IMG/VR virus record: IMGVR_UViG_3300022752_004384 | Location: 1 to 44,784 of that record | Source: a virus | DNA length: 44,784 bases | Direction: 5' to 3' (one strand) | In this document: in pieces, positions 520 to 26,200 of the stretch | Numbering within the stretch: the first letter of the stretch is position 1 | Layout: each line of letters begins with the position of its first letter | Made by a program: the position numbers and the translations under genes | Notes under the pieces: generated by a model | What the model was told of the DNA's origin: nothing | What the model saw: only the letters and a program-made list of their open reading frames with translations | Database searches by the model: none

Positions 520-1089
520 ATGGTCATACAGATTTTTACACAGATTAATGAACCTAAACTACCAAATGAATACTCTATTTGGATTCCCTGTTTGACAGTA
601 AACAGCATATTAAGTGTTTGTCCTATACAAACTGATAGCGTATTTATTACACACTCCAATGCTGTCTACTACTATGAGGGAACCCTACGCAACAAACACA
701 TATATTGTATAGGGCCTATCACAGAAAGTCAACTACGAATGGATGGATATACTGTAACACGTTTGGCCGATCGTGCTCGTGATGTAGTTCTGCCTGATGA
801 GCCCATAACTTGGCTACACGGTGATACTTATAAAAGAGACTTTAGCCTAGAACCCAATGTCCAAGCACAACAAACCTATGAGACTACGGTAGATTATACT
901 GCTGTACATCGTGCTATTCATTTACAGGCCAAATTTGTCTATATCTACAGTCCCAAAGTACTCAAGGCTTTTGAAGAAAGGATATCTGGCACATATTTAC
1001 ATTTGAATTGTACAGATAGTTGTAGCCCAAACAGCGAACTATGGCGAAGTATTACCAGGTTCTATCCAATAGACAATAAATACGAATAA
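520..1089 (+). CDS. Uroporphyrinogen-III synthase (HemD)-like protein
   Basis: A 189-residue protein whose motif order matches the two-lobed HemD fold. A strand and S-x-A-V element (SVFITHSNAV) lies at about 41-50. A GP-x-T-x-x-x-L-x-x-x-G element (IGPITESQLRMDG) follows at about 65-77. Then come a loop with HGD, a Y-x-x-x-V-x-Y linker near 120, and a second lobe strand with a Ser-Pro turn (VYIYSPKVLKAF) near 140-151. HemD cyclises hydroxymethylbilane to uroporphyrinogen III, the precursor of heme and sirohaem. The family is weakly conserved and usually near 240-260 residues, so this is a short version and the match is by eye. It converges on the heme oxygenase/bilin reductase block, which supports a tetrapyrrole role. 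Start chosen as the first in-frame ATG; no strong ribosome site. Confidence 0.45.
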   Translation: MVIQIFTQINEPKLPNEYSIWIPCLTVNSILSVCPIQTDSVFITHSNAVYYYEGTLRNKHIYCIGPITESQLRMDGYTVTRLADRARDVVLPDEPITWLHGDTYKRDFSLEPNVQAQQTYETTVDYTAVHRAIHLQAKFVYIYSPKVLKAFEERISGTYLHLNCTDSCSPNSELWRSITRFYPIDNKYE

Positions 1090-1093
1090 CATG

Positions 1094-1132
1094 CCCTAGG
1101 ACCGTTAGGGTTATGTGGCTCACCCCCGAGCC
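1094..1132 (+). other. Two short hairpins between two genes
   Basis: CCCTA (1094-1098) pairs with TAGGG (1106-1110), and GGCTC (1117-1121) pairs with GAGCC (1128-1132). They lie between the HemD-like gene and the next plus-strand gene. Neither has a T-run, so they look like leader or mRNA-processing structures rather than classical terminators. Confidence 0.35.
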
Positions 1133-1185
1133 TCAGCAAGGGACTCGCTACCCCTTTGTTGTAAATGGGGGCCTTAGGAGTCAAT

Positions 1186-1494
1186 ATGAAATTACTACTA
1201 GCGGGCCTCTTCTTACTACCCACTGTAGTATTGGCTCAACAAAACATTCCCCTTAATACCACTAACAAGCCTATAAGTTGTGGTGATGCCAAGGCCATAT
1301 TTGCCGAACTACAACGTGTAGGTGAAAATCCTGTATGGTATGGTAATGTGGAAGATCCAAAAAGTTTATTAAGTCTTTGGATCAGCAAAGAAAATAATAC
1401 TTGGACTGTGTTACAGAGTGGACAAACCAAAGCCTGTGTTATTGATGTGGGTGTAGGTAATGTATTTTCTGCTGATCTAGTGCAGGGCAAGTAG
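1186..1494 (+). CDS. Small secreted protein with signal peptide
   Basis: Begins MKLLLAGLFLLPTVVLAQQ, a typical Sec signal peptide with a cleavage site after VLA, leaving a mature domain of about 83 residues with two cysteines (SCGDAK and KACVID) that could form one disulphide. An in-frame ATG lies 21 bases upstream, but AGGAG sits 5 bases before the ATG at 1186, which decides this start. It probably acts in the host periplasm or envelope. Function unknown. It ends one base before the stop of the convergent 46-residue ORF. Confidence 0.65.
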   Translation: MKLLLAGLFLLPTVVLAQQNIPLNTTNKPISCGDAKAIFAELQRVGENPVWYGNVEDPKSLLSLWISKENNTWTVLQSGQTKACVIDVGVGNVFSADLVQGK

Positions 1495-1635
1495 TTATTT
1501 TTTACACATGGGTTTGATACCATTCATGGTAATACCCATCTTTTGCCAAGAGTCTATATCACCCATAAGGAAATAGGGTAAGTACCAAAATAGTAGAAAA
1601 TATTTGACTTGTACATCTAATAAGTTATTGATCAT
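1495..1635 (-). CDS. Small hydrophobic protein (46 aa) coupled to the 453-aa gene
   Basis: A 46-residue ORF whose ATG overlaps the stop of the upstream 453-residue gene (ATGA), so it is probably translated by coupling. The N-terminal half (VKYFLLFWYLPYFLMG) is aromatic and hydrophobic and could be a membrane segment; the C terminus is basic. It is the last gene of the heat-shock/bilin block. Function unknown. Confidence 0.5.
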   Translation of the reverse strand: MINNLLDVQVKYFLLFWYLPYFLMGDIDSWQKMGITMNGIKPMCKK

Positions 1636-2993
1636 TTTTTGTATCCAAAAGCAAGTTTGCCAATAACTTTAGTAGAAAAATAGTTTTTACCAGCCTCTAG
1701 CTTAAGGTTACCAGTGAATTGAGGAGGCCATATGGTTTGAAACCTTTTAACCTCCACTCCGTTATTTGTAGCTTGTGTGTAAAGATGTATCTGTAATAAA
1801 GGACTGCTATTTAAAAACGTTAAACAGGCTTTACTGAAGTTTGGTATTTCAGTATTCACATGGTTACATACCATTTTGGCCAATCCCGCTAGTGCGTGAT
1901 TTCCTATATTATATCCTGAAAGAAAATCAGTAACAGTCATGTTATTCATTAATTTTTGGATATTAGCGTACTGTTTACCTTTGGGCACTTGTGTTATGCC
2001 ATTTTTAATAGCTGTTAGTATGAATCTCGTATCATCTTCAGATAAGAACCCAAATTCCTGCCCTAATACAATAGGACCCATGATCATACTCTGTTGTCCT
2101 ATTACTTCCATTATATGAACTGTTTCAGGGAATTGTTCTAAAACAGCCTCTTGCCCAGTTCTACGTAATAGTTCAATACCATCTAATATATTTTTAGAAC
2201 TGGCTTTAGCTCCGTCATTGCCCTTACTGCTAATACCTATTCTAGCACCTTCAGCAGGTACCATATAACTATCCACAAGACCAGCATTTTTACCTATACT
2301 AAAGGCTATTCTACAACTATTCCAGGGTGCATCTTGTAGTAAAAATGCTCTTGCTTTTTCTGCATCCCCACCAATTAATCCCTGCCATAAGGCTATAGGT
2401 GCTATTATTTCACCTAAGTCATCTCTGATCGCAGGCTCCATTGCTTTATCTACAGCAAATACTGGTAATTTACCTTCCAACAACATGTTCATACCATTCA
2501 CCAGTGAAGGATCTGTTAATTTTAAACTGCCTATAAGTTGCTCTGGACTTTCAAATGGTTGAGATAAGTCTAATAGGTCTGATGGTTTTAGGCCTGATCT
2601 AGCCTTTTGACTGGATTTTATTGCTAGTTGATAGCCTGGAAGTTCATTCTTCCATTTACCTCCCATGTTATGAAGAATTTCTTTGAAATACTTGCCAAAA
2701 TAAACTTCTTCATTTGTTTCTGGATCTCGCATGGTCACTACAGCAAATGCTAGTACTCCTTTGGTGGGAGTATTGATCCATTGTATATTAGGATATGTTT
2801 GATTGACTTGATCTACGTTTTTTTGAAAAATAATGGGATTCGGATATTGTCCTTTAGGAGTAGGAAATGTTTCAGCCTTGACAAATTCTAATTTTTTATT
2901 AGGGTCTTGTGTGCTGTGAAAGGGATCTCCAGGATTCCTAAATAGTATACCTCTCGAGGACTCTGGAATCGTTCTAAACTCTCTAAATCGCAT
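1632..2993 (-). CDS. Conserved T4-like phage protein of unknown function (453 aa)
   Basis: A 453-residue soluble protein with the MRFREF start common in marine T4-like phage proteins. It has no signal peptide or membrane segment. A stretch near 245-265 (ARIGISSKGNDGAKASSKN) and an acidic EIIAPIALWQG near 195-205 recall nuclease-like folds, but no complete PD-(D/E)XK motif is visible and I assign no activity. It follows the bilin reductase by 10 bases, so it may be co-transcribed with the bilin genes. A late-promoter-like motif lies directly before the ATG. Confidence 0.55.
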   Translation of the reverse strand: MRFREFRTIPESSRGILFRNPGDPFHSTQDPNKKLEFVKAETFPTPKGQYPNPIIFQKNVDQVNQTYPNIQWINTPTKGVLAFAVVTMRDPETNEEVYFGKYFKEILHNMGGKWKNELPGYQLAIKSSQKARSGLKPSDLLDLSQPFESPEQLIGSLKLTDPSLVNGMNMLLEGKLPVFAVDKAMEPAIRDDLGEIIAPIALWQGLIGGDAEKARAFLLQDAPWNSCRIAFSIGKNAGLVDSYMVPAEGARIGISSKGNDGAKASSKNILDGIELLRRTGQEAVLEQFPETVHIMEVIGQQSMIMGPIVLGQEFGFLSEDDTRFILTAIKNGITQVPKGKQYANIQKLMNNMTVTDFLSGYNIGNHALAGLAKMVCNHVNTEIPNFSKACLTFLNSSPLLQIHLYTQATNNGVEVKRFQTIWPPQFTGNLKLEAGKNYFSTKVIGKLAFGYKK

Positions 2994-2994
2994 A

Positions 2995-3013
2995 GTTAAG
3001 TATTTACCTTAAC
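2995..3013 (-). promoter_or_regulatory. Late-promoter-like GTAAATAC inside an inverted repeat
   Basis: GTTAAG and CTTAAC flank GTAAATA on the minus strand, directly before the 453-residue gene. The motif resembles the phage late -10 box (ATAAATA). It ends only seven bases before the ATG, so a transcript starting here would be nearly leaderless. Confidence 0.35.
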
Positions 3014-3684
3014 TCTGGGAACAAACACTCCTGGATGAAAACCCTTACATCTTCCTCGTTTAGCCCCAAACTGGTCATCACCTTAGGCGTGTGAGGATTC
3101 ATTTTTTGGTTGTGTGCGTAGAAATTCTGTGCCTCTCTACTATCGCCCTGTCCATTAGTTTCACCCACATTAGCCAGATAGTGCTCTACTCCACTACGAG
3201 CCATAGCAAAAATTTGATCTAGTTCGTGTTCGTCCTGTACATTTCCAGCAGCCACCATACTCTTACTGAATATACGCTGTGCCCAATCTGGGAGTGCTCT
3301 TTCCTTGCGCCACTCCATCTTATTAACTTCGTGCTCAAACCACTCTAACATAGGATGATCTCGTCTAGTAGTTGGGCTGAAGTCATAAAAACAGCCGGTG
3401 ATTTTATTCTTACCGGCTATTACATCAAAACCAAATATGGGGGCTGGGTTATGTGTATGTGGGAATACGCAACAATGCATCATCCACAAACCTTTTTTCT
3501 CTCTGGCATCTACTACATCTACGTGAGCACGACGATAGTTTTTGCTAGTCCAAACACGGTTGACCCAACCTGGTTGGTTAAATCTATCCATGCCTTCTTC
3601 AAATACTTCTGTGCCAGTACGAGTGAAATTATCTTCTAATAAATGCTGTACATTGATTAGACTATCCCAAACCTTACTCTCCAT
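3004..3684 (-). CDS. Ferredoxin-dependent bilin reductase (PebS/PcyX/PcyA family)
   Basis: A 226-residue protein of the usual family size (about 230). Core signatures are RRAHVDVVDAR (51-61), LWMMHCCVFP (66-75), PIFGFDVIAG (82-91) and CFYDFSPT (98-105), then a C-terminal LFPEL. His70 and Asp87 occupy the positions of PcyA His88 and Asp105, with the same 17-residue spacing. The family reduces biliverdin IXalpha to phytobilins (phycoerythrobilin, phycocyanobilin) with electrons from ferredoxin. The usual NDKT motif near the C terminus reads NPHT (196-199), so the second catalytic Asp of PebS (Asp206) seems to be absent. The gene overlaps the heme oxygenase gene by 11 bases, so enzyme and substrate supplier are co-translated. 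The exact bilin product cannot be read from the sequence. Confidence 0.88.
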   Translation of the reverse strand: MESKVWDSLINVQHLLEDNFTRTGTEVFEEGMDRFNQPGWVNRVWTSKNYRRAHVDVVDAREKKGLWMMHCCVFPHTHNPAPIFGFDVIAGKNKITGCFYDFSPTTRRDHPMLEWFEHEVNKMEWRKERALPDWAQRIFSKSMVAAGNVQDEHELDQIFAMARSGVEHYLANVGETNGQGDSREAQNFYAHNQKMNPHTPKVMTSLGLNEEDVRVFIQECLFPELR

Positions 3685-4219
3685 TGTATAAATCCCTCAT
3701 CATCTTAATGGCCCATTCGAAGGCCACACGAGCCTCATCACCTAGGTCGTCTGTTAGTGTGATGCGAATAGCTGTCTTCATAGCATCAGCGTTCTCGAAA
3801 TCATAGAACTTGCCTTGGCTGATATGTGCCACTTGTTTTTTAATGATCTGGCCTCCGAAAAGATCGCCCATATGGCGACAATATAGATGTGCCTTGATAA
3901 GGTGCTTGCGGAATTCATCATTGCCCAATTTATTTAGGTATGCCTGATACTCCAAAGTCGCTGGAGTTAGATAACAATAACTACCATCATCTAGTTCTTG
4001 GAAGTCAGCATAGATTGCCTTGAGGCGTGGTAGATTTGGCATGCTCACAAGGAAACCTTGGCGTTGGCAATACCATTCTATGGGATCATAGATCGCCAGT
4101 AGATTATACAGATAGTTTCTGTAGTCTTCTTTCTTGATTTTGCCACTTAGTAACATTTTGGCAAATTTAGTTGTTTCTGCCTCATGGTGTAGGTCTTTGG
4201 TTATTTCTCTTAAACTCAT
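3674..4219 (-). CDS. ho1: Heme oxygenase
   Basis: A 181-residue all-helical enzyme. The proximal helix has the family pattern LHHEAE (10-15) with His11 as probable heme ligand, and the distal helix has GDLFGGQ (118-124), equivalent to GDLSGGQ of HO-1 with the catalytic Asp (119). It cleaves heme to biliverdin IXalpha, CO and ferrous iron in the cytoplasm, using ferredoxin or another reductant. Its length is that of compact phage and bacterial forms, without a membrane anchor. The start overlaps the clpS stop (ATGA) and the stop overlaps the bilin reductase start, giving one coupled unit. Confidence 0.92.
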   Translation of the reverse strand: MSLREITKDLHHEAETTKFAKMLLSGKIKKEDYRNYLYNLLAIYDPIEWYCQRQGFLVSMPNLPRLKAIYADFQELDDGSYCYLTPATLEYQAYLNKLGNDEFRKHLIKAHLYCRHMGDLFGGQIIKKQVAHISQGKFYDFENADAMKTAIRITLTDDLGDEARVAFEWAIKMMRDLYNGE

Positions 4220-4545
4220 TCTTCCTCCAGTTTGATTTGTAACGGAAATCCATTAGCCCTTGCCAAATTAGTAGTTTCTACTGCCTTAATTTCCGCGATC
4301 TCAAAACTATATGTACCTGCGATACCACTTCCAGACTCATGAATTTGGAGTGTAATATGTTGTGCAGTTTCTGGAGTATGTTTAAAGATTTCAATTAGGA
4401 TACTGATCACAAATTCCATTGGAGTATGATCATCATTTAAAAAAATTACATGCCATTTTTTTGGTTCTTTTACCTCAATTTTAACTTTTTCATTGAGTTG
4501 TATATCAGTAGTGACTTCTGTTGTAGACACTGTATCGACAATCAT
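4216..4545 (-). CDS. clpS: ClpS-type N-degron adaptor for ClpAP
   Basis: About 109 residues: a flexible N-terminal tail of about 30 residues, then the ClpS core with WHVIFLNDDHTPMEFV (the NDD..P substrate pocket), HESGSGIAG and YSFEIAEIKA, and a C-terminal PLQIKLEEE. ClpS docks on the ClpA N-domain and delivers proteins with bulky hydrophobic N termini for degradation. No ClpA or ClpP is seen here, so it would act on host protease. An ATG four codons upstream exists, but GGAG lies 6 bases before the ATG at 4545, favouring this start. It sits between hsp20 and the heme oxygenase gene. Confidence 0.88.
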   Translation of the reverse strand: MIVDTVSTTEVTTDIQLNEKVKIEVKEPKKWHVIFLNDDHTPMEFVISILIEIFKHTPETAQHITLQIHESGSGIAGTYSFEIAEIKAVETTNLARANGFPLQIKLEEE

Positions 4546-4564
4546 ATTAAACTCCATTATAAGT

Positions 4565-4582
4565 GGGGGAGTTACCTCCCCC
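4565..4582 (-). terminator. GC-rich hairpin between hsp20 and clpS
   Basis: A perfect 7-bp stem, GGGGGAG with CTCCCCC, around a 4-base loop. It lies just after the hsp20 stop and before clpS. The downstream T-run on the minus strand is weak (ACTTATAA), so it may be an attenuator or mRNA-end stabiliser that lets some transcription through to clpS. Confidence 0.55.
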
Positions 4583-4588
4583 TGTTAG

Positions 4589-5026
4589 TTAGGCTTGGTT
4601 AATTTGAATCTTCCTTGGCAGCAGGGCCTCAGGAACAATTCGTTCAATCACTACAGTAAGCAAACCATTTTTGAGATCAGCATTTTTTACTTCCATATGT
4701 TCTGAAAGAGCAAATGTTCTCTCAAAACTACGATATGCTAATCCTCTGTGAAGATATTCTATTTCCTCACTGGTTTCTACAGCTTTCTTTTCACCAGTAA
4801 TAATCAACTGATCCTGATCTATACTTACATCAATTTCATCTCTACTAAAACCTGCAACTGCCAGCGTAATAGTATAGATATCACCCTTGCGTTCTAGGTT
4901 ATAGGGAGGATAGTTATTATTGGCCATACTGTTCCCCCAACTACGTTCCATAGTGTTAAAAATACGATCAAAACCAATCAATGCTCTGTTTAGAGCCGCT
5001 GTATCCATTCTAGCTAATTGTGTCAT
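4589..5026 (-). CDS. hsp20: Small heat-shock protein (Hsp20/IbpA type)
   Basis: 145 residues with the alpha-crystallin domain: YNLERKGDIYTITLAVAGF (42-60), the acidic EIDVSIDQDQLIITGEK strand pair, LHRGLAYRSFERTFAL, and the conserved NGLLTVVIER, followed by a short C-terminal PRKIQ (I-x-I-like) tail. It holds unfolding proteins for refolding by DnaK, encoded directly upstream. AAGGAG lies 7 bases before the ATG. The 97-base leader holds overlapping early and late promoter motifs and a hairpin. Confidence 0.9.
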   Translation of the reverse strand: MTQLARMDTAALNRALIGFDRIFNTMERSWGNSMANNNYPPYNLERKGDIYTITLAVAGFSRDEIDVSIDQDQLIITGEKKAVETSEEIEYLHRGLAYRSFERTFALSEHMEVKNADLKNGLLTVVIERIVPEALLPRKIQINQA

Positions 5027-5056
5027 TTTATTTCTCCTTGTTAAGCAAGATTAAAA

Positions 5057-5081
5057 TAGTGGCCTCACCTGAGCACCACTA
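5057..5081 (-). other. 5'-leader hairpin of hsp20
   Basis: TAGTGG pairs with CCACTA across a 13-base loop, 3 bases downstream of the late -10 motif. The dnaK leader has an equivalent hairpin with AATGGT/ACCATT, and both leaders share CTTGCTTAA before the ribosome site. Confidence 0.45.
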
Positions 5082-5083
5082 GG

Positions 5084-5118
5084 TTATTTATGTTAGCACT
5101 TAAACATTTAAGTGTCAA
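5084..5118 (-). promoter_or_regulatory. Overlapping early and late promoters with palindromic operator, hsp20
   Basis: Minus strand: TTGACA (5118-5113), a 17-base spacer and TAACAT (5095-5090) form a sigma70-type promoter. It is followed at once by a late box, CATAAATAA (5092-5084). The spacer carries a perfect inverted repeat, CACTTAAA-TG-TTTAAGTG (5114-5097), running into the -35 box, where a repressor could bind. Confidence 0.5.
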
Positions 5119-5122
5119 CATA

Positions 5123-7000
5123 TTAGGCTGCATCCTTTACCTCTTTAAAATCAACATCAGTAATATCTTTGTCCTTTTGTTGACTTTGTGCTTCCTTAGC
5201 CTTATAGATAGGTTGAATAGCAGCCATCAAGTCACTCAACTTTTGAGTGATTGATTCTTTTGTGCCTGTGGCAGTTTCTGTTATAACAGATTCAATACTT
5301 TTTTCTATCATTTCTTTTTCACTGGCACTTAACTTATCTTCAACTTCTTTTAGATCCTTACGCACATTGTGAATTTGACTATCTACAGTGTTACGCATAT
5401 CTACAATTTCACGTTGCTTACGATCTTCCTCAGCATTGGCCTCAGCTTCACGAATCATCTTTTCAATTTGATCCTTACTTAGTCCTCCATCTGATTTAAT
5501 AGTAATTTTATTCTCTTTGCCTGTGGTCTTATCTTTGGCACTGATTTTCATAATGCCATTAGCATCCACATCAAAAGTTACTTCAATTTGTGGCATACCT
5601 CTGGGCTGTGGCATAATACCTTCTAGGTTAAATTCCCCTAGTAGTTTATTATCCTTTACAAACTCACGTTCACCTTGAAATACCTTAATAGTAACAGCAG
5701 GTTGATTATCCTCTGCTGTACTAAATGTTTGACTAGCCTTGGTTGGGATAGTAGTATTCTTTTGGATGATTTTGGTCATTACACCGCCCAATGTTTCAAT
5801 ACCCAAACTTAATGGTGTTACGTCTAATAGTAATACATCATTACGCTCACCACTGAGAACAGCACCTTGTATAGCTGCACCAACTGCCACTGCTTCATCT
5901 GGATTTACATCCTTACGTGGAGCTTTACCAAATAATTTCTCAACTGCTTCCTGTACTTTAGGCATACGTGTCATACCACCAACTAGGATGATTTCATCAA
6001 TGTCAGCTGGAGTAACTCCTGCATCTTTCATTGCAGTGCGACACGGATCAATACTACGCTGAATTAGATCTTCTACTAGACTTTCTAATTTGGCCTTTGT
6101 AATCTTTATGTTTAAATGTTTAGGTCCTGATGTATCGGCTGTTATATATGGTAAATTTACATCAGTCTGTTGACTACTACTCAACTCAATTTTAGCCTTT
6201 TCAGCAGCCTCTTTTAGTCTTTGTAGAGCTAATACATCTTTGGTAAGATCCAATCCTTGATCTAGTTTAAACTGATCTACAAGATAATCCATAATACGTT
6301 GATCAAAGTCTTCACCGCCTAGGAACGTATCACCATTAGTGCTTAGTACTTCAATTTGCTTGTCGTTGCCTACATTGGCAATTTCAATAATACTGATATC
6401 AAAAGTACCACCACCTAGGTCATATACTGCTACCTTACGATCCTGCTTATCTGTTTTATCGACGCCGTAAGCCAACGCGGCAGCAGTAGGTTCATTAATG
6501 ATACGAAGAACTTCAAGGCCAGCAATACGACCAGCATCTTTAGTAGCTTGACGCTGACTATCATTAAAATAGGCCGGAACAGTAATAACAGCTTGAGTAA
6601 CTTCATAGCCTAAATAATCTTCAGCAGTCTTTTTCATTTTACGCAGTACTTCTGCACTGATCTGAGGAGGTGCTAGTTCCTTACCCTGTGCCCTCACCCA
6701 AGCATCACCACTTGAATTTTCAATGATATCATAGGGCATTAGGTCTAAGTCTTTTTGTACAGCCTCTTCTTTATACTTACGCCCAATTAGACGTTTGGCT
6801 GCATAGATTGTATTTTTTGGGTTTGTAACAGCTTGACGTTTGGCACTGGCACCTACAAGAATTTCTTCATTAGTGTAGGCTACAATACTAGGAGTAGTAC
6901 GTGCTCCTTCGCTGTTTTCTATTACACGGGAATTGCCGCTTTCAATTATAGCGACACAACTGTTAGTAGTACCGAGATCGATACCGATTACCTTACTCAT
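5123..7000 (-). CDS. dnaK: Chaperone DnaK (Hsp70)
   Basis: A complete 625-residue Hsp70 (typical 610-640). Visible are the N-terminal phosphate loop [13 protein letters not shown], the second phosphate motif [11 protein letters not shown] near 194-204, the adenosine motif [10 protein letters not shown] near 338-347, the linker [14 protein letters not shown], the substrate-binding domain with [13 protein letters not shown], a helical lid and a C-terminal [11 protein letters not shown] tail. No DnaJ or GrpE gene is visible nearby, so it presumably uses host co-chaperones. AAGGAG precedes the ATG. The intact length and motifs argue for selection for function in the phage; folding virion proteins or the tetrapyrrole enzymes are inferred uses. 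Confidence 0.97.
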
Positions 7001-7065: not shown

Positions 7066-7596
7066 TCAATCAAATTTTCTACCCAATTTCCTAAACATAT
7101 TTTGTACACCTATGGCCTGTCTACGGGCATCTTCAAGAGCATGATGTTTATTAGCCTGAGGCATTTCAGGGTCCATTCCCAAGTCAAATAATGTACGGGT
7201 ATCTCTAACTTCCCAAAATTTCCATGGATACGGTTTTCCAATTTGTCTATAGTAGTGTTCTAAAATAATAATATCAAAAGTGCTACCATGACTCCAAAAC
7301 TTACTGGATCCCATACAGAACTTATAAAAATCGTCCATTACTGTACGTATGTCGATTCTATTATTAGGATCAAATGCTTCTTCTTGAGCTTTTGGATCTT
7401 GTTTGCTCCACCATTCAATAGTTCCATCATCAATATAACTGTCCAGCCCATCCAAGCTTTCCAGTTCTACTTTATAATAAAGTTCATCATATATTTGATC
7501 ACTATTAGGATTAAAGGTTACTGCACCGAGGCTTAATATTGCTGCGTTGGGTGTAGTGGCTAAGGTTTCTAAATCTACCATTAAATGTTTTGTCAT
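7066..7596 (-). CDS. DEDDh 3'-5' exonuclease (DexA / Rv2179c-like)
   Basis: 176 residues with the three DEDDh blocks: MVDLET (Asp8, Glu10), a central HGSTFD (about 104-109) with the second Asp, and HHALEDAR (about 151-158) with the catalytic His and last Asp. It is shorter than T4 DexA (227) and closer to the compact Rv2179c-like group. A role in host DNA or RNA degradation or nucleotide salvage fits the family. TATAAT (7609-7604) lies 7 bases before the ATG, so the mRNA might be nearly leaderless; the -35 match is weak. Confidence 0.82.
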   Translation of the reverse strand: MTKHLMVDLETLATTPNAAILSLGAVTFNPNSDQIYDELYYKVELESLDGLDSYIDDGTIEWWSKQDPKAQEEAFDPNNRIDIRTVMDDFYKFCMGSSKFWSHGSTFDIIILEHYYRQIGKPYPWKFWEVRDTRTLFDLGMDPEMPQANKHHALEDARRQAIGVQNMFRKLGRKFD

Positions 7597-7624
7597 AATA
7601 GTGATTATACTATATCTTTAGGAA

Positions 7625-7852
7625 TTAGTAAAGCTTAGTTGGTAGTCTTTCTTTTTCTAATTTTTTCTTATATCTATTGACTGCGGCACCATGTTTACGC
7701 TTGCGTTCTGTTGTGGGCTTTTCAAAAAATTCTTTTTTACGTAGGTCATCTAAAATACCACTGTCATCTACTTTCTTTTTGAATTTGCGTAGTGCTCTAT
7801 TAACATCTTCATCTTCTCTTAATACTACTTTGCGACCGTTAAAATTATTCAT
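7625..7852 (-). CDS. rpsU: Ribosomal protein bS21
   Basis: About 75 residues with the bS21 pattern: KVVLREDEDVNRALRKFKKK, then GILDDLRKKEFFEKPTTERKRK and a basic C-terminal helix. The open frame extends 19 codons upstream, but the ATG at 7852 has AAGGTG just before it and overlaps the preceding gene's end by 8 bases, so it is preferred. bS21 sits on the 30S platform near the mRNA exit. Phage copies are thought to replace the host protein and bias initiation toward phage mRNA; that role is known for the group, not shown here. Confidence 0.88.
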   Translation of the reverse strand: MNNFNGRKVVLREDEDVNRALRKFKKKVDDSGILDDLRKKEFFEKPTTERKRKHGAAVNRYKKKLEKERLPTKLY

Positions 7853-8252
7853 CTTCACCTTCTTCTGGGTTTTGTACTTGTTTGAAAAATGGAATACTAT
7901 CCAAATCATAAATTCTATTTTTACTTATCAAACCATAAGGAGTTATTTCATCCTTTGTTATATAGTAAGTATCTGTTTGAGCTATCATAAAAGTGACAAA
8001 GCTTCGTGTAATTACATCACAATTGTCAACATCAATAATACAAACATCAGCATAATTATGTACGCTTAATAACCAATCTAAATCCATTTCGTTTTCGTCA
8101 TATACAAATACATTGAGTTCTTCAATGATTTGACATATATATTTTTGAAAGGCTTCCTTAACTTCATTTGTTGGTTTAACCAACAAAATACTAGGATTTT
8201 GGTTAAACAATTTATCTGGTGGAGTAATTACATTAATCTTGCCTAGATTCAT
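7845..8252 (-). CDS. Unknown phage protein (135 aa)
   Basis: A soluble, acidic 135-residue protein with no membrane segment. Alternating hydrophobic strands (SILLVKP, LNVFVYDE, DVCIIDVDNCDVITRSFV, DTYYIT) suggest an alpha/beta fold. The C terminus is NPEEGEDE and overlaps the bS21 start, so bS21 is translationally coupled to it. Its own start overlaps the preceding small ORF by 20 bases. Family not recognised. Confidence 0.6.
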   Translation of the reverse strand: MNLGKINVITPPDKLFNQNPSILLVKPTNEVKEAFQKYICQIIEELNVFVYDENEMDLDWLLSVHNYADVCIIDVDNCDVITRSFVTFMIAQTDTYYITKDEITPYGLISKNRIYDLDSIPFFKQVQNPEEGEDE

Positions 8253-8379
8253 TTTCTTGTACTCTTATACGTTCTAATTCATCTACTTGCCATGGTAAAC
8301 GATCAATCAATCCCATCTTCTTTAACTTTAATTGTTGCTTGATCGTATCATTTGGGTTACTATCTTTCCAAGATTTCAT
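8233..8379 (-). CDS. Small charged protein, possibly the C-terminal part of a frameshift product
   Basis: From the ATG at 8379 (GGA 4 bases upstream) this gives 48 residues rich in Lys, Glu and Gln. The same frame is open without any ATG back to the A10 tract at 8470-8479, adding about 29 residues (VATDEDDRVILIEDEKT...). That extension is the -1 frame of the upstream membrane-protein gene, so the natural product may be a fusion. Function unknown. Confidence 0.5.
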   Translation of the reverse strand: MKSWKDSNPNDTIKQQLKLKKMGLIDRLPWQVDELERIRVQENESRQD

Positions 8380-8465
8380 ACGTTCCTTTTCTAATAACTT
8401 TAATTGATTTATATATCTAGTTTTTTCATCTTCAATTAAAATTACACGATCATCCTCATCAGTTG

Positions 8466-8480
8466 CTACTTTTTTTTTTC
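8466..8480 (-). other. Candidate -1 frameshift site A AAA AAG + TAG
   Basis: The membrane-protein gene ends GAA AAA AAA AAG TAG. The last lysine codons form the heptamer A AAA AAG used by E. coli dnaX, and the stop follows immediately. A -1 shift would add about 77 residues. GAGGA lies about 15 bases upstream, where dnaX has a stimulating SD-like element. No strong downstream stem is visible. Confidence 0.5.
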
Positions 8481-9665
8481 GAGTTCTAAATTATCCTCTT
8501 CAGGTTTTTCAACCTTAACAGCTACTGGCTCAGGGCTTAGTACTACAAGTGGCTTTTCTACTACAGATTCTTGCTTGACTTCTTCAACAATTATAGGAAT
8601 TGGTATTGTAGGTGCTGGCTCTGGAACTTGGTAAGGTGCTGATACGATCTCTGGTTTTGGCTCTTCCTTTACGGGCTCCACTTCCATAGGTTTCCATTTG
8701 AAATAATTGCCAGGAGTTTCAAGATGTGTTTGTTTAACTATTGGCTCAACAGGCTTTGGAGCCGTTTCCTGTATTTGTTCAATTTGCTTGTCTGTTAACG
8801 GTCCATCATCAGGTTCGTATTTGGGTTCTTCCTTTGGTGTTTCTTCAGGACCTTTAGGACGCATTTCTTCTTTTATTTTAGCAAATAAACTAGTGTCACC
8901 CTTACGTTCGGCAAAGGCCCATTGGAAACTCATTTGGCTGGCCAATAATAACAACACTGCCAATGGATCAAATACAAACACAATGGTTAGAATTACCCAA
9001 ACAACAGCCTTCTCTAATAGATTGGCATCTGGATTATCACCGTAGATTAGAGCAGCGATATATTTGATAGGACCAACTTCAGCTTCTACTTTACGTACTT
9101 CGGCACGTATAGGAGCAGTTTCTTCATTGAGCTTTTGAATTATGTTCTGTTCTTTTTCTATTTCACCTAATAATCTCTTGCGATCATTAGCTTGACTACG
9201 ACGGATTTGATCTGATCTGGCAGCACCTTGTTCTGATGTACTACGACTCATGACCTGATCCACAGCCGCATCTAATTGTTTTAATTGTGTACGAGCACTA
9301 TCTATGTTACCTCTGGCAATTTTGATTTTTTCGTCAATAAGGCTCAACTTGGCTTGTACGTCACCGCTGACAAGGCTTTGATCACTGTGTGCTTTACTGA
9401 GATATCCAAAGATACCCATACTGGTAATAAGCATGAGTGTAATAACTGCTATAGTGAGATACCCTTTTAGAGTCCAAGGCGTTCGATACCAATTAGCCTT
9501 AAGCCACCATGCTGTGACCAGTTTACTAATTTCTAATACAGTGCCCATTATAATGACACTGAGAGCGGCCGCACTGAATATACTAGCTAGGCCGAGAACC
9601 GAATAATAGATAGCAATTGTTGAAATTGCTATCCCTGTAAAAAATGTTAAAAATGCTAGAACCAT
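8466..9665 (-). CDS. Membrane protein with coiled coil and proline-rich tail
   Basis: About 399 residues. There are three N-terminal hydrophobic segments (MVLAFLTFFTGIAIS..., the SIFSAAALSVIIMGTV region, GYLTIAVITLMLITSMGIF), then a helical coiled-coil domain rich in Lys, Glu, Gln and Arg, a further hydrophobic segment (AVVWVILTIVFVFDPLAVLLLLAS), and a cytoplasmic tail of repeated Pro/Glu/Lys motifs. An upstream in-frame ATG would add 14 residues but overlaps the previous gene and lacks a ribosome site. Similar proteins occur in marine T4-like phages without known function. The gene ends on a slippery A10 tract. Confidence 0.65.
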   Translation of the reverse strand: MVLAFLTFFTGIAISTIAIYYSVLGLASIFSAAALSVIIMGTVLEISKLVTAWWLKANWYRTPWTLKGYLTIAVITLMLITSMGIFGYLSKAHSDQSLVSGDVQAKLSLIDEKIKIARGNIDSARTQLKQLDAAVDQVMSRSTSEQGAARSDQIRRSQANDRKRLLGEIEKEQNIIQKLNEETAPIRAEVRKVEAEVGPIKYIAALIYGDNPDANLLEKAVVWVILTIVFVFDPLAVLLLLASQMSFQWAFAERKGDTSLFAKIKEEMRPKGPEETPKEEPKYEPDDGPLTDKQIEQIQETAPKPVEPIVKQTHLETPGNYFKWKPMEVEPVKEEPKPEIVSAPYQVPEPAPTIPIPIIVEEVKQESVVEKPLVVLSPEPVAVKVEKPEEDNLELEKKK

Positions 9666-17252: not shown

Positions 17253-20200
17253 TTACATACGACCTATTACAACTTCAATCATGCCCTCTTCGCCATCAAA
17301 ATCTTCCAGTGCTTTACCTATGACCATACCCATTCTTGGATCATCATGTGCTTTAGCATAACCATCGCCTGCACTGACTAACATATCACCCTTGGAGATC
17401 TTACCTTTTACCTTAACTGGTACTCGACCCTGTAGTGCTATAGTAGCAGTATGTTCAGCTTCTAATTCAGCGTTCATCAAATGAGCTGGATTCTTACTTA
17501 TTACGCCTATGACCTTTCTTGTTTCTTCAATGGCCAATGTAACTTCATACACGCCACCTAACATTAGTACAGTGCCTTCAGCATAGTCAGCATCAGCTAC
17601 ATAGTTTTCTGCCAAGTCAGCATAACGTGCTGATGTGGCAGTACAAGTTGCTAATCCTGCAGAATTTACTTGAAATCGAAATACATTTGCTCCATCCGAC
17701 CAGCCACCAATTTTAAACACATTGTCGGTATCTAAGCCCATATTGACTGCATATGCACCAGCACGATGGAAACTTAGTTGCGCTGCGTTTGTAGTAGATC
17801 CCATAACCTGTGGACCGCCTACACCGCCATAACCAACACCAACACTGGCAGTAGAATAACCTAAGATACCAGCAGTACCAGTCACATTGGTTGCATTGGT
17901 TGCATTGGTAGAAGAACCTGCACTGTCTGCGTATCCTACGTGTACATCTGCATGGCCAGCATTATTTGCATCATAACCATATAATCTCCAATATGTTCCA
18001 GTCCAATATGTTTGAACACTATAACCACTGTCGTCATCACGTCTATATAATCTAGTGGTTCCTGGTCTGGCATCGCTGACCCTAATATTTGGCGTGTTGG
18101 CTGTATTGAGCATACGATACCAACCTGTGAATGCACCTGAACCCCACACACCTCTTATCCAGCACGAACTAGGATCACCTGCACCTACAGCCATTTGATA
18201 ACCATAACGAGTGGTTCCATCTGTAAAGTGTAGTGCCTGATGACCTTGCCAATGGGTTGTACCTGGGGGTTGATTTGCAGGGCCACTCCAAGTATCAAAA
18301 AATCCTGATCCCCAGTTAAATACGGTATTAAGATCTTCTTGCCCCCAACCCATGGAGCCTACCCAATAACCCGAATTTGAAGTGATGGCAGGTCTAGAAG
18401 TTCCATATTTGGCCGTCAATCCCAAATGAGCCTTAGCTGTATTAATAGAACTATATCTAAGATATCCATCATAGCTCATGTAAATACGATCTGGGAAAGT
18501 ATTACCTAAATCACCAGATGTAGTATTGATCCAACCTGCTTGAATATAACCATTACTGTCAGTCCTTACTATTTTATCAGCCTCGTTATTACGACCTCCA
18601 TGAACTGCCAAACCACCTGCTGTAGTGGCATTGGTTACTGATTGACTACCAATATTCGCCGAAGTAATAAATTCAACCCAACCACCAAATGTACCAGCAG
18701 AAATATTACGTTTCCACATACGGTTTGCATTATCTTCCCAACCGTGTGCATATTGTGTGCCCCAATAGTTAGATCCATTACTATGACGCATTGTTTCTAA
18801 GAAATGCCAACCCGCATTGGGAGCATTTGTGCTACCATTACATTCAATCCAACTGGTTCTATGAGCTGGAGTATCCGTAAACTGTGTATTTGCGTTACTT
18901 GCTGTGCCTGATGGCGATTGATACAATGCATTGGTAGCAGTACCATTTATGTTCATTGATTGACCACTGATAAATGCAGCCACTTTAGCAGCCGTTGCAG
19001 ATCGATAATAGTTATCACCGAACTTGGCCATTATATAAGTTATAGTGCCAGTGCTTACATCATCACTACTATTAAAATAGTTAGAGTTAATATAACGGCC
19101 ATAGAAATCACCATTAGCATCACGAGCAACAATGGCATTGGCAGTATTTGCACTGGTAGCATTTGTGCCTAAAGTTATTGTAGCATTAGTTCCTTGATTG
19201 GTAGTAAATGATCCACTACCAGTTAAACCACCGCCTGTGGCAATATTGATAGTTGCATTACCTACATAATTAGTATAATTATTACTATGTAATATTTTTG
19301 ACCATGCAGTAGTTCCACTTCCTGCTGTTGATCTATAGAAAAGATCCTGACTATAAAAATCAGCAGCCAACTGCATAGCAAAATAGTTAGCATCATTACT
19401 ATGTGTAGTACTCATTAGATGACACCAACTATTCGTGTTTATAGGCCAACCTTCAGCTGTAGTTGCTGAACTGGACTCCCAAAATCCTGAAGTTACTCTA
19501 GTTGTTAAATTATCCTGATTTTCACTATCATTGCTAAAACTAGCCCCAGTAGCATAGCCTACTAAATTAGCTGTAATAATTCTCGCACTGAAGTCGCCAT
19601 TGCCATCTCTGAAAACAGTGGTGCTAGCAGTATTAGCACTGGTAGCATTACTGGCAACAGTAAATGTGGCTGCTGTAGAGCTATTGGCTGTAAATGTAGT
19701 ACTACCACTAATACCGTTGCCAGAGGTGTTCATAGTTAATGTAGCATTACCAACATTAGCTGTGCCTACACTAGCACCGGTTACGTGTCCAAAGTCATCG
19801 AAGTTAAGACTTATATCTTGTATAAATGTAGTACCACTATTATCACTGGCTAAATTGCTTACACTGCTAGTATCAGCATGTGCTATGAATACAGCATTGC
19901 TTTCTCCTGGACTTATATTAGTAAAAGTTAATCCAGAATTTACAGTGCCGCTTAATGTAGCACTACCAGGAGTTCCAGCACTAATTGTAGCAATATAATT
20001 ACCAGTTGTATCTGTTCCTAGTGCTACACTATTTGCTGATACTGTTAATGCTACGTTGCTAACGTTGGCACTGCCATCTATAGTAAAGTTACCTGTTATA
20101 TCTCCGCCAGCAAAAGTTACAGTTCTAGCTGTGCTCCATTTATCAGCACTGGTTGCATTTCCTGATACGCTTCCTGTTATATTGCCTTCAAAAGTTCCTG

Positions 20201-23200
20201 CAATAACAGTAGATCCTGCACCAAATGTCCATTTATCTACACTCTCATCCCATAGTAAACTTACATTAGTACTAGTACCTCTTTCAACTTCAATACCTGA
20301 ATTTTGACTTGGTGTTCCTGTTTCATCAGCATTTAATACTATTATATTATCACCAATATTAACTGTATTACTATTGACTGTTGTAGTTGAGCCATTTACT
20401 GTGAGGTTACCTGTGATTATAGTATTACCACCTACACTTAACGCTCCCCCAATATTAACATTTTCACTAATACCTGCACCACCTGTCACTACCAATGTTC
20501 CAGTTGTAGTATTAGTGCTGGTAATATTAGCAGGCATTTCAATACGACCTGTTCCTAAGACTTTAAGTCTATCAGTACTGGTCAGTAAAGTTGGACCACC
20601 ATAGCTAATTGTTACGTAGCTACCTGTATCTGTTACATCAACAAACTTTTCAATACGCCAATGACTTCTAGCTAATGTATCCTTAACAAATGCAGTACCA
20701 TTCCAGTTTAAATTGGTCATCCAACTATAGGTATGCAGTGCTGGACTGGTTATTCTACTCTTGAATGAGGTAGTTAATGCACTTTGTATTGTGACACTGG
20801 TCAATGCTCCAGTTCCAGCATAGGTCAAATTTAACGTAGGATCATCTATTACAGGGCTAGCCTTATATATGACCTGTCCACCAGTTGTAAAGTTTATGGT
20901 ACTACCATCAGTAGCTTGGAATGTCATTGTATTGCTAGCAGTTAATGTTTTAGTATTGGCTAATGTAAATGTACCGGTGCTATTTGTAATAGTCATTCCA
21001 TTTACAGTTTTGTTGGTCAATGCTTCTGTACCAGCCAATGTAGCCAATGTTCCTGTTGTTGGGAAGGTAACCGTAGTTGCAGCAGTCATAGTAAATGTAC
21101 TAGCAAAGGCTCCGCTGGTTGTTAGATTACCACCTAATGTTATAGTTTTGGTACCGTTATTAACACCAGTACCACCGTATGTTGGACTAATAATAGTTGC
21201 TTGCCATGTACCAGTTGCGATAGTTCCTACCTTGGTTAAGCTACTATTGACTACCCCCGATCCTAATGTTGTGCTGCTCAATACATCAACACCATTAATT
21301 TTATAAGTTTTTCCAGTGACGAGATCCATATTCTCGCTACTGGTCCAACTACTAGTTGTCTGTTTCCAACTAAATGACTTGTCAGTAGTACCTTTTACTG
21401 TGATACCGCCACCATTAGCAGTTGCATTAGTAGCTCCACCTGTGCTAAACACTACAGCAGTACCGTTTGGTGATATTTGATCAGGTGGAGTATCTGCTGT
21501 AAATGTAAATAGATTTGGACCGTCAATACTGACCACTCTAGGATTAGATCCTAGCTGTCCTCCTGATACTCTGCTTAAGGTCATACCAGGAATCATACCA
21601 CCAGTGTTGGCAGTTATAGTTGAGGTCAGTGATCCAACAGCAGTGAAGTTAATATTACCTGAACGATTACTTATTGGTTCTACAGAACCTAATTCAATAT
21701 TATTATCGTCCATCTTAATATCATAGGCATTTAACGTACTGGCAGCACCTGTAATATCAACATTACCTAATACTGTTAATCCATCAATGATTAAACTATT
21801 ACTCCATTGTGGAGCAGAGCCAGTACTAGTTAAAACTCTATTGGCAGTTCCTATAGGAAGTTTTTGTAAGTTTGTTGCACCGTTAGCATAGAGCATGTCA
21901 CCCACTGTATATGCGCTATAATTAGTACCCCCTCTACTAACTGGGACTGGTTGTGATAGATTTACTGGGTTTAGGTAGTATGTACTATCATATCCATCTA
22001 ATGTTCCTGCATCTACTACCCCACTTTTAATTGTTACTGTACCCTGTGCTGGTCCTGATCCAACATCAAATTGACTTTTATTAAACTTGGATACACCTAT
22101 ATTTGTGTATCCTGGTGTAGATGTACTTTCCTGTGCGCCACTTACTATGTCAATACCAATGGTTACTTCGTTGTAATATTCATTGAGACCACCAGATCCT
22201 GGGTCATAATAGGAACCTGTGATACTAATAGCACTATCTGTATTTTGTCGTTTGATCTTTTGTACAGCCTTGGCCCATTGATTGTCACCTCTGAGGAATG
22301 TGTTGGAATTGGCTAGTCCTATAGCCAATCTACTGGTACTCATTATGCCGCTTACAATATTATTAGTATCAATATTGTTGGCACTTAGACTACTCCAGTT
22401 TTCTGGTAGTATTGAAGCATTATCTACTACACCTATAATTCTAATACTTTGTTTTCTAAAACTGGCAGTGCCTGTACCTGTGTTGGTAAAGTTAAACGCA
22501 CCAATAGTAAGTCCTAGAGTACTGGCCACTGAATCAGCTCTATTTTCGTGTATAGTAAATGTGTTTTGTGTGATTGATCCTACGAAGAAAATACTCTGTG
22601 TCAATATACCATAAGGTGGATCTGCTGCTATAATCTTCACAGCATCCCCTGTGGCAAATCCATGATCTGGAATATAAACTGTATCCTTAGTGATATTGAT
22701 TACTTGCAGAGTAAATGTTTGACTGCCAGCTCCTGAGTTCTGTATGGTTAGTTTGCTGCTTAGACTGTAGTTAGTATATAGTTCAATAGTATCAGCATCG
22801 ACTCGTTTGATGTAATATACAGAATTATTAATAATACCACCTAATGGTGTTCCAAATCCTGCATTATATACCACAGGATCGCCATCATCAAATGGATGCC
22901 CTATAATAGTGATACGACTCAATGCTGTATTCACTGCACCACCTGAACCAGTACTAGCTGCATTGAATGAAGCCACTACAGAAGAATCCATAGCACCTGT
23001 AGTCTGTGTAACTACTACAGAGTCTTCTGTGAATTCTGGAGCTATTAGACTAGCATTAAACTTCAATGCACCAACAACATCTACGAATAATCTATTTTGT
23101 ATTTGACTAACTTTTACGCTAAATGCTGAACCACCTGTGCGTCCTCCTAGGCTCGCATTACTGGCACTGAGGCGATCTGTGGTAGTATATCCACTACCAC

Positions 23201-26200
23201 CTGCTGTAAGTGCTACATTAACTACTACTCCACCACTAAGGAAAATATCAGCTCTAGCACCTGTGCCTGATCCACCTGTAAGTGGAACATCAGGATATAT
23301 CCCAGATACAGGTTGTGTATATCCACCTCCGCCTGCTAGTCCATTAGTAGGATCATTTGAATTATCAACAGCATTAATTACACCTAATACTAGAGATTCT
23401 ATATTACCCTGTGCTTTACTGTTACTGCCGGTTACACTGGTAACTCCTGTAAAGTTGTAGGTTTGTGTAGTATCAAGTAATAGGATTTGTTTAGCATCTA
23501 ATTCACTTAAAATATAATTTGTATTCTGATCAGGAATCACACCACCTACTACTGTGGGTGTTCTGCCTGTTGCGGATCCATTTTTACTTAATAATCCTGT
23601 AGTATTGAAGTTAGCATTGAATGTTTTAGTTAAGCTACCAACGATCAATGTAGTGCCGTTAGTCGCTCCTACTACCCTACCTGTGGCGCCTGATCCTGCT
23701 TGTAGGATTAGATCACCATCAGCAGCCACAATGGTTCCATTAAGAGTAAGCTGTACGCTACTATATGTTTCAATGGCTAAATCACCGTTTAAAATACTAG
23801 TAGGTGGTATAGTATTAACAAGATTCAATCTACTGCGATAACCACTACTTCTATATACAAGGAAGTTTCTTAATGGTGGTATCTGATCAGCATTTAGTTT
23901 GCCCAAGGCGTTAAGCTGTGGAATACCTCCTGGTACTGTGGTTGTAGTCAGTGCTTTGTCAATAAAGTCACCCAATCTATTCTCTAAGAATCCACGAACA
24001 GCAGCCTGTGTACTTAATCTTTTATGGCTTGGACCGCCTACTTCATTATCACCTAGGTCAATGTCAGCACTGAATTCTTCAATAGTAATGTTACCTACGG
24101 CCAATTTCAAAGCATCCAATGCAGCAATACTCACTGTATTAGTAAATTGTACATTACCAGTTTTGTTTTCTGCCTTAATAAAGTCACCAACTTTAAAGTC
24201 ACCTAATTCATTGGTTCCTGAACTATATACACGCCCTGGTAATTCACTGACCTGTTCATATTCTACTCTAGTTCTACCACCGTTTTGTGGTAGTGCGTTA
24301 TAATCTATACCACTACCTGCATATTCCCAAGTATGACTACTGCTATTACAAATACTGGGTCTATGTAACCATATTTGTTTTTCTGGTAAGGTTTCTAAGT
24401 TGATAAGTTCATTACCGCTGGTTGTGGCCAATATTTTAAATGTAGCTGTGTATAGATTATCTACGTTATTAACATCAGTTACATCAATGTTTAATATAGG
24501 GGTAGCACTGTGATCATATTGAATAACAGAATTCAATGTAAAGTTATTTCTAATAAAAGAAATACCTATAAGAACTTTTTCAACGCTGACTACTAGATTA
24601 CGTGTGGTTGGATCCCAACTATATACATAAGCTCTATTTGGTTGCGATCCATCTGTGGTACCTTCTATGACTCTTCCAGGAACAAATGTATATTCCTTGC
24701 CAACAGGAGGAGGCTGTATCTGTAGTTTTTGATAGACTACGTGTGATTCAGTGAGATCATCAATAAAGAATTCTTTAATGTTCTTGAGGAATAAATGATC
24801 ACCTGCGGGTAGTGGGGCCGAGAACTTGACCTTGATTTCAAAACTGTCATCCAAATATAATTCAAACTGGTTTAGATTCACCGTCTTAACCACATAAGTT
24901 TGTTCATCATATAAACCTGTGATTACACTGTTGCCATTTCTACTATAGACTATACGATTGGTATTTTGGAAACCATGATTAGGTATTGTTATAAGCCCTG
25001 TAACTGTATTGATTACAGGTTCTGTCTGTGCAGGTGAGGTCAAGGGAATAATTACATTATTTGCAGGTGTAAATGTCACACTATCATTGGCCTGTTTATA
25101 ACTGTTGGTCACGTCACCTATATTACTGTAGTCAATGATTTCAGGAACATTGATAATACTAGTAGTAATATCTATAATAATATCAAATAAATCACCTACA
25201 CGGCCCTGTGCATCTGGATGTACTAATAGTATAGTCTGTGCCTTAAGTCTTTCAAATGCTGCTATGTTCTGCGTTTTCTGTGCTATCACTGCTGCCGAAG
25301 TAGCTGTAGCATAGGCTAAACCTGCCTCCACACTCTTACTGTTACCACCAGTGAGCACATCGTAGGCCACTGCTTCAAGAATTAATATTGTGTCTCGTTT
25401 ACAGGTATCATCATTATAGGTAAACCCTGTATAATATGGTTGTGTATTGTTGGCTATTTGATCATCAATCCATATGATCAAAGCGTCTCTTAATTCTTCT
25501 TTGTTGTTTAATATTGTTGTATAAGTGTTTCTATAAACAGGATTTCTAAATCTTATTACATAGTGCTGTACAGGTAAATCACCAAAACCAATAGCGGTAA
25601 GAGTTTGTTGTGCTCCAGCGGTACCTGTGCCAACTACTATACCTTTATTAAAATCAAAAGCATTTGGACTATATCCATTAGCCCTCAATGCAAACTGTCC
25701 AAAGTTAGTAGCACTATTGGTAATACTTAAATATCCACCACTTTGTACATAACTACCATTTAAACAAAAGATTTGGAAACAACTTACAATCTGTGCATAA
25801 GCATCATTGATCACACGATAGCCTGTACCACCAAAGCTCAACATGGTAAATGCATTACCCACCATTGACTTACCTTGTTGTGGAGCAGGACCTTCTACTG
25901 GATTCTCTGCTTCAATCTGATTAGCTGGTATGTTAGGTGTGCGTACCTTACTACCATCTACTAATACGCCATTACCGCCTAAGAAACTGATAATAGAGCA
26001 GTTTTGTACATAAGGGCTTATACTGATTACAGGCTTGTTGTTAGGTAATCTACCATAACCAACACGACTACATTCAGGATCAGCAGGATCATCAAAGGCC
26101 ACGGCATAGTCAAATGTAAAGCTAGGAACCTTATTGCTATCTAAAGCGTCTCTAAAAGTTATCTCTGTGAAATAACAACCATTACGCACACGCAGCATGT

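Follow-up and report, generated by a model that had tools for sequence, protein, structure and literature searches.

The window, by which we mean the whole stretch of 44,784 nucleotides that was analysed (IMG/VR record IMGVR_UViG_3300022752_004384), carries at positions 520 to 1089 of its plus strand an open reading frame (ORF) with an ATG start, encoding a HemD-like protein of 189 amino acids, a putative minimal homologue of uroporphyrinogen-III synthase. Its orientation is opposite to the leftward run of nearby genes. An earlier note on this DNA had placed the ORF beside heme/bilin genes, and this proved correct: the gene for a ferredoxin-dependent bilin reductase of the PcyA/PcyX type (3004 to 3684, minus strand; PF05996, E value of 1.9e-16; PHROG 7278) is only 1.9 kb away, with that for a heme oxygenase (3674 to 4219, minus strand; PF01126, E value of 6.4e-23) adjoining. 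The bilin reductase scored under the cut-off of the NCBIfam PcyA model. Between the HemD-like and bilin reductase genes lies a variable gene (1632 to 2993, minus strand), whose place in sister phages is taken by unrelated or barely related proteins. On the other side, at 4216 to 7000 of the minus strand, genes for ClpS, Hsp20, and DnaK adjoin the heme genes, DnaK having been assigned partly by reading. ClpS-dependent proteolysis of an enzyme forming 5-aminolevulinate is known in other systems, and by analogy the ClpS gene may be linked to the heme genes via such proteolysis. Further along, one ORF of 4383 amino acids (17253 to 30404, minus strand) is kept in two sister phage contigs, G003 and G005, described below.

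Immediately downstream of the HemD-like gene, covariation revealed a conserved structured RNA element consisting of three hairpins and a pseudoknot (1089 to 1171, plus strand), which forms the leader of the next gene. Eight of its 25 pairs are changed on both sides and 96.6% of the cells are paired (0/500 shuffles); in the pseudoknot, a loop pairs with bases ahead of the start codon. The next gene (1186 to 1494, plus strand), starting at 1186 after AGGAG, encodes a small protein with a signal-peptide-like N terminus, predicted to be exported, and in most relatives it likewise accompanies the HemD-like gene on its downstream side. The element is also present in contigs L002, L010, L011, L013 (11551 to 11640, minus strand), and L370 (3856 to 3946, plus strand), and matches no Rfam family. 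In L013 the HemD-like gene follows it directly; in L370 it is upstream of an amidotransferase-like gene, while elsewhere it precedes the gene for the small, putatively exported protein. These differing downstream genes indicate that the element, a candidate new cis-regulatory RNA, is not heme specific. The L370 phage contig also encodes a putative isocitrate-lyase-like protein (7398 to 8672, plus strand).

Full-length homologues of ORF 520-1089, alike in their start and stop regions, were found in five other IMG/VR contigs, with identities to the window ORF of 48 to 98% overall (L001, 98%; L002, 93%; L010, 61%; L011, 60%; and L013, 49%). In the closer pairs, namely, those with measurable dS, dN/dS was about 0.09 to 0.13; dN and dS were 0.037 and 0.279 between the window and L002, and 0.126 and 0.981 between L010 and L011. 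A dN of about one-tenth of dS, together with homologues in five contigs, shows that this is a gene under purifying selection and no chance ORF; ORF 520-1089 is a real gene. A further candidate homologue, L199 (32% match; E value of 3e-4), lies on another kind of phage contig and was set aside as a chance match. Near the HemD-like gene, L001 (3656 to 4531, minus strand) and L002 (1721 to 2596, minus strand) encode a porin-like protein with a predicted signal peptide.

The protein had been proposed to be a HemD on the basis of the order of its motifs, and all of them were found in the sequence in the stated order: FITHSNAV (first strand and helix of lobe 2), YCIGPITESQLRMDGY (the GP.T...L...G motif), WLHGD, QTYETTVDY (which holds the linker tyrosine), and YIYSPKVLKAF (the second SP strand). 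HEM4 (PF02602) was the sole Pfam family matched by all six members of the phage family, with a best E value of 2.1e-4, under the cut-off, and all six matched an NCBIfam uroporphyrinogen-III synthase model. The window protein scored 17.5 bits against HEM4 and did not reach the curated cut-off of 27.5 bits, which is an annotation threshold and no biological definition; of 14 control genomes in which HEM4 found a match, 2 likewise fell under it.

For the reverse search, the phage family profile was run against about 800 bacterial genomes, 399 of the Limnohabitans order (in six frames) and 398 of the phylum. In the 399 genomes, one locus (L190) came far ahead, with an E value of 1.7e-6. This is an ORF of 223 amino acids scoring 102 bits against HEM4, flanked by the genes for porphobilinogen deaminase on one side and uroporphyrinogen decarboxylase on the other, that is, in the standard hemC-hemD-hemE order. 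Among cellular proteins, the L190 HemD, itself rather short, comes nearest to the phage profile, but it is only 21% identical to the phage protein and has the usual C-terminal unit. The 398 phylum genomes gave seven matches passing an E value of 0.05, of which those ranked 1, 2, and 5 were HemDs by Pfam.

The profile-profile comparison suggested in the earlier note gave a concordant result. With hhalign, the phage family aligned to an unbiased set of 45 HemDs, gathered independently of it, with a score of 38.9 (probability of 78%; P of 1.7e-5) over 121 collinear columns spanning both lobes. Adding the four HemDs that the phage profile had retrieved raised the score to 59.2 (probability of 95.8%; P of 6.5e-9), the latter P value being due in part to the fact that these four had been picked by similarity. 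None of 100 column shuffles scored above 21.3, and reversal of the alignment gave 18.0; as these are far below both values, the order of the motifs goes beyond chance. Family profiles, reverse search, profile-profile alignment, and the structural comparison of lobe 2 given below thus agree with the proposed homology, supporting the view that the 189-amino-acid protein belongs with uroporphyrinogen-III synthase as a divergent and shortened homologue; its common ancestry with HEM4 proteins is detectable by profile methods with controls. E. coli HemD as a query had no match in IMG/VR, the INPHARED phages contained no HemD-like match, and the PDB held no match beyond chance to either the window sequence or the phage profile. 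A Niemann-Pick C1-like PDB match covered only a short TDSC.PN stretch and was dismissed.

From an alignment with PDB 1jr2, assuming a construct offset of 21 residues, Thr68 (codon 721 to 723, plus strand) and Tyr120 (codon 877 to 879, plus strand) were assigned as the equivalents of Thr103 and Tyr168 of human UROS. Neither assignment depends on the full human UROS sequence included in our joint alignment. In this joint alignment, Tyr120, the interlobe tyrosine of the family, and Ser144, in the S-P strand of lobe 1, are both invariant in the six phage members and are conserved as tyrosine and serine, respectively, in 49 of 49 HemDs. Gly65 and Pro23 were matched in 48 of the 49 and Asn47 in 40, while Thr68, in the G..T motif of lobe 2, corresponds to threonine in 36 and to serine in 12. 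Mutagenesis of HemD has implicated a conserved tyrosine, and the enzyme has no known essential residue (PMC7242693). The phage proteins hence share with HemD/UROS (PF02602) the order of motifs in both lobes, the family Tyr, Thr, Gly, and Ser, and the predicted fold of lobe 2. In contrast, they are phage encoded, fall under the Pfam cut-off, have their gene away from hemC, and measure only 179 to 189 amino acids, against about 223 to 266 for known HemDs, making them shorter than every HemD compared (by about 35 to 75 residues for the bacterial ones). The last unit of lobe 1 (the IGPTTA region of the human enzyme) is reduced in the phage protein or replaced by TDSC.PN..W.SITRFYP.

Supplied with six homologues, AlphaFold modeled the window protein at a pLDDT of 37.5, and this model was discarded. 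For the L013 homologue, residues 31 to 90 reached block-mean pLDDT values of 67 to 88, and lobe 1 stayed below 50. When residues 21 to 101 of the L013 model were compared to 1000 PDB chains, the top five were all HemDs, from Thermus, Helicobacter, and two pseudomonads (76 to 80 residues aligned at 3.3 to 4.2 Å), with Z values of 5.0 to 4.4, the next unrelated chain having 3.4; these Z values are middling, and the Foldseek E values for the model were not significant. The model thus predicts a HemD-like fold for lobe 2. The check on predicted structure proposed earlier held for this lobe, for which HemDs ranked first.

Almost from end to end, the window aligns collinearly with positions 337,076 to 379,875 of G003 (IMGVR_UViG_3300036770_003657), a phage contig of 399,796 bp, and also with the 58-kb contig G005. 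G003 encodes AlaS, HemB, HemC, the HemD-like protein, HemE, HemF, HemH, HemO, and a bilin reductase (loci on this contig are labelled L248, L249, L261, L262, and L267). Its AlaS gene, at 382,604 to 383,782, lies just beyond the end of the window-equivalent region, hemC and hemE are adjacent, and HemB, HemC, HemE, HemF, and HemH each scored above their own curated NCBIfam equivalog cut-off. No protein of this contig other than the HemD-like one matched HEM4. Genes common to other phage records flank hemC-hemE on both sides, making it unlikely that G003 is a chimeric contig. For protoporphyrinogen oxidase, the only step of the pathway with no gene detected in G003, the search covered the HemJ and amino-oxidase types and found neither. 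HemE is absent from the window itself, and G005 has genes for AlaS and HemF besides the HemD-like one. A scan of IMG/VR for G003-like hemC returned only G003. The INPHARED matches listed for the G003 heme enzymes looked like bacterial sequence filed as phage, and none among them was near G003. The phage DnaK is nearest to those of Burkholderiales, including the freshwater genera Limnohabitans and Polynucleobacter, and the host is probably a member of the Burkholderiales.

Heme oxygenase and bilin reductase genes were present in nine of nine long records, whereas the HemD-like gene was confined to the phage of the window, G003, and G005. Heme oxygenase and bilin reductase genes are harbored by six further phage records, of 215 to 364 kb, and none of them has hemB, hemC, hemE, hemF, hemH, or the HemD-like gene; alaS was found in five of the six long records lacking the latter. 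In this sample of two long records with the HemD-like gene and six without, the five middle-pathway genes lying together on one contig, the HemD-like gene was present or absent together with these genes, indicating that it travels with the middle of the pathway. The earlier note proposed that the phage may act on tetrapyrrole metabolism at both ends, an idea strengthened by AlaS, HemB, HemC, HemE, HemF, and HemH in the collinear G003.

Given its homology to HemD and the middle-pathway genes that track it, the 189-amino-acid protein most likely carries out the HemD step in a heme pathway encoded by the phage. We assign a probability of roughly 0.78 to this reading, in which the ORF encodes a minimal, fast-diverged HemD that would be catalytically active. 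The cleft between the two lobes of such a protein would bind hydroxymethylbilane and cyclize it, with inversion of ring D, to uroporphyrinogen III.

The main rival, which we regard as unlikely, is that the protein kept the HemD fold without catalysis and binds linear tetrapyrroles (hydroxymethylbilane, biliverdin, or reduced bilin), for example, taking over bilin from the bilin reductase to pass it along, or blocking a host enzyme. Because hydroxymethylbilane, too, is a linear tetrapyrrole, bilins might fit the cleft, and both the shortened lobe 1 and the position of the gene next to those for heme oxygenase and bilin reductase would fit such a role. However, the gene tracks the middle-pathway genes and not the bilin genes, which every one of the nine long records carries; the protein retains the family Tyr, Thr, and Ser; and G003 has no other HEM4 protein to supply the HemD step. 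A chance resemblance of an unrelated Rossmann-like phage protein to HemD would be in line with the weak single-sequence scores and with an AlphaFold model that is poor over most of the chain, but it is largely refuted already, and we hold it to be very improbable: blind reverse searches put HemDs on top while shuffled and reversed controls scored much lower, the family-invariant residues coincide, HemDs lead the structural list, and heme genes are associated with the gene in the genomes. Least probable of all is a working HemD that feeds the host's siroheme or cobalamin synthesis instead of heme, for although these three routes part at uroporphyrinogen III (PMC7242693) and the window alone lacks HemE, the sister phage has HemE, HemF, and HemH, which are heme-specific steps.

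With the protein acting as HemD, AlaS would form 5-aminolevulinate, HemB and HemC would convert it to hydroxymethylbilane, and the 189-amino-acid protein would produce uroporphyrinogen III. HemE, HemF, a protoporphyrinogen oxidase of the host (or an undetected one), and HemH would then lead to heme, from which heme oxygenase and bilin reductase, encoded nearby, would release reduced bilin and iron. A sister phage with almost the whole pathway suggests that such phages probably make their own heme before breaking it down to bilin. We infer that the phage of the window carries the remaining heme genes past the contig ends and that there is flux through the heme pathway during infection.

Phage AlaS with heme oxygenase and PcyA/X, functional for a freshwater phage, has been described by Wegner et al. 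(2024; PMC11480375), who called the co-occurrence of synthesis and catabolism enigmatic. In that study, the closest to the present case, the phage tetrapyrrole genes belong to the start (5-aminolevulinate synthase) and the end (heme oxygenase and bilin reductases) of the pathway, and its main text mentions neither hemD nor hemC. The phages described here share AlaS, heme oxygenase, and bilin reductase with that cassette but add the HemD-like protein and HemB, HemC, HemE, HemF, and HemH, giving a nearly complete pathway. In the open-access papers searched, we found no phage HemD and no near-complete phage heme pathway. We consider it reasonably probable that jumbo phages of freshwater Burkholderiales encode a near-complete heme pathway from glycine and succinyl-CoA to heme plus the heme-to-bilin enzymes, that these are the first phage HemD and the first such phage pathway, and that the phage largely runs the flux of tetrapyrroles in infected cells. 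A HemD of 180 residues would define a minimal version of an enzyme without a known essential catalytic residue. If the phage encodes the middle of the pathway too, then the virus would build the heme that it subsequently opens, and experiments could ask what it gains by this: bilin, iron, heme for its host's respiration, or freedom from a host that has been shut down.
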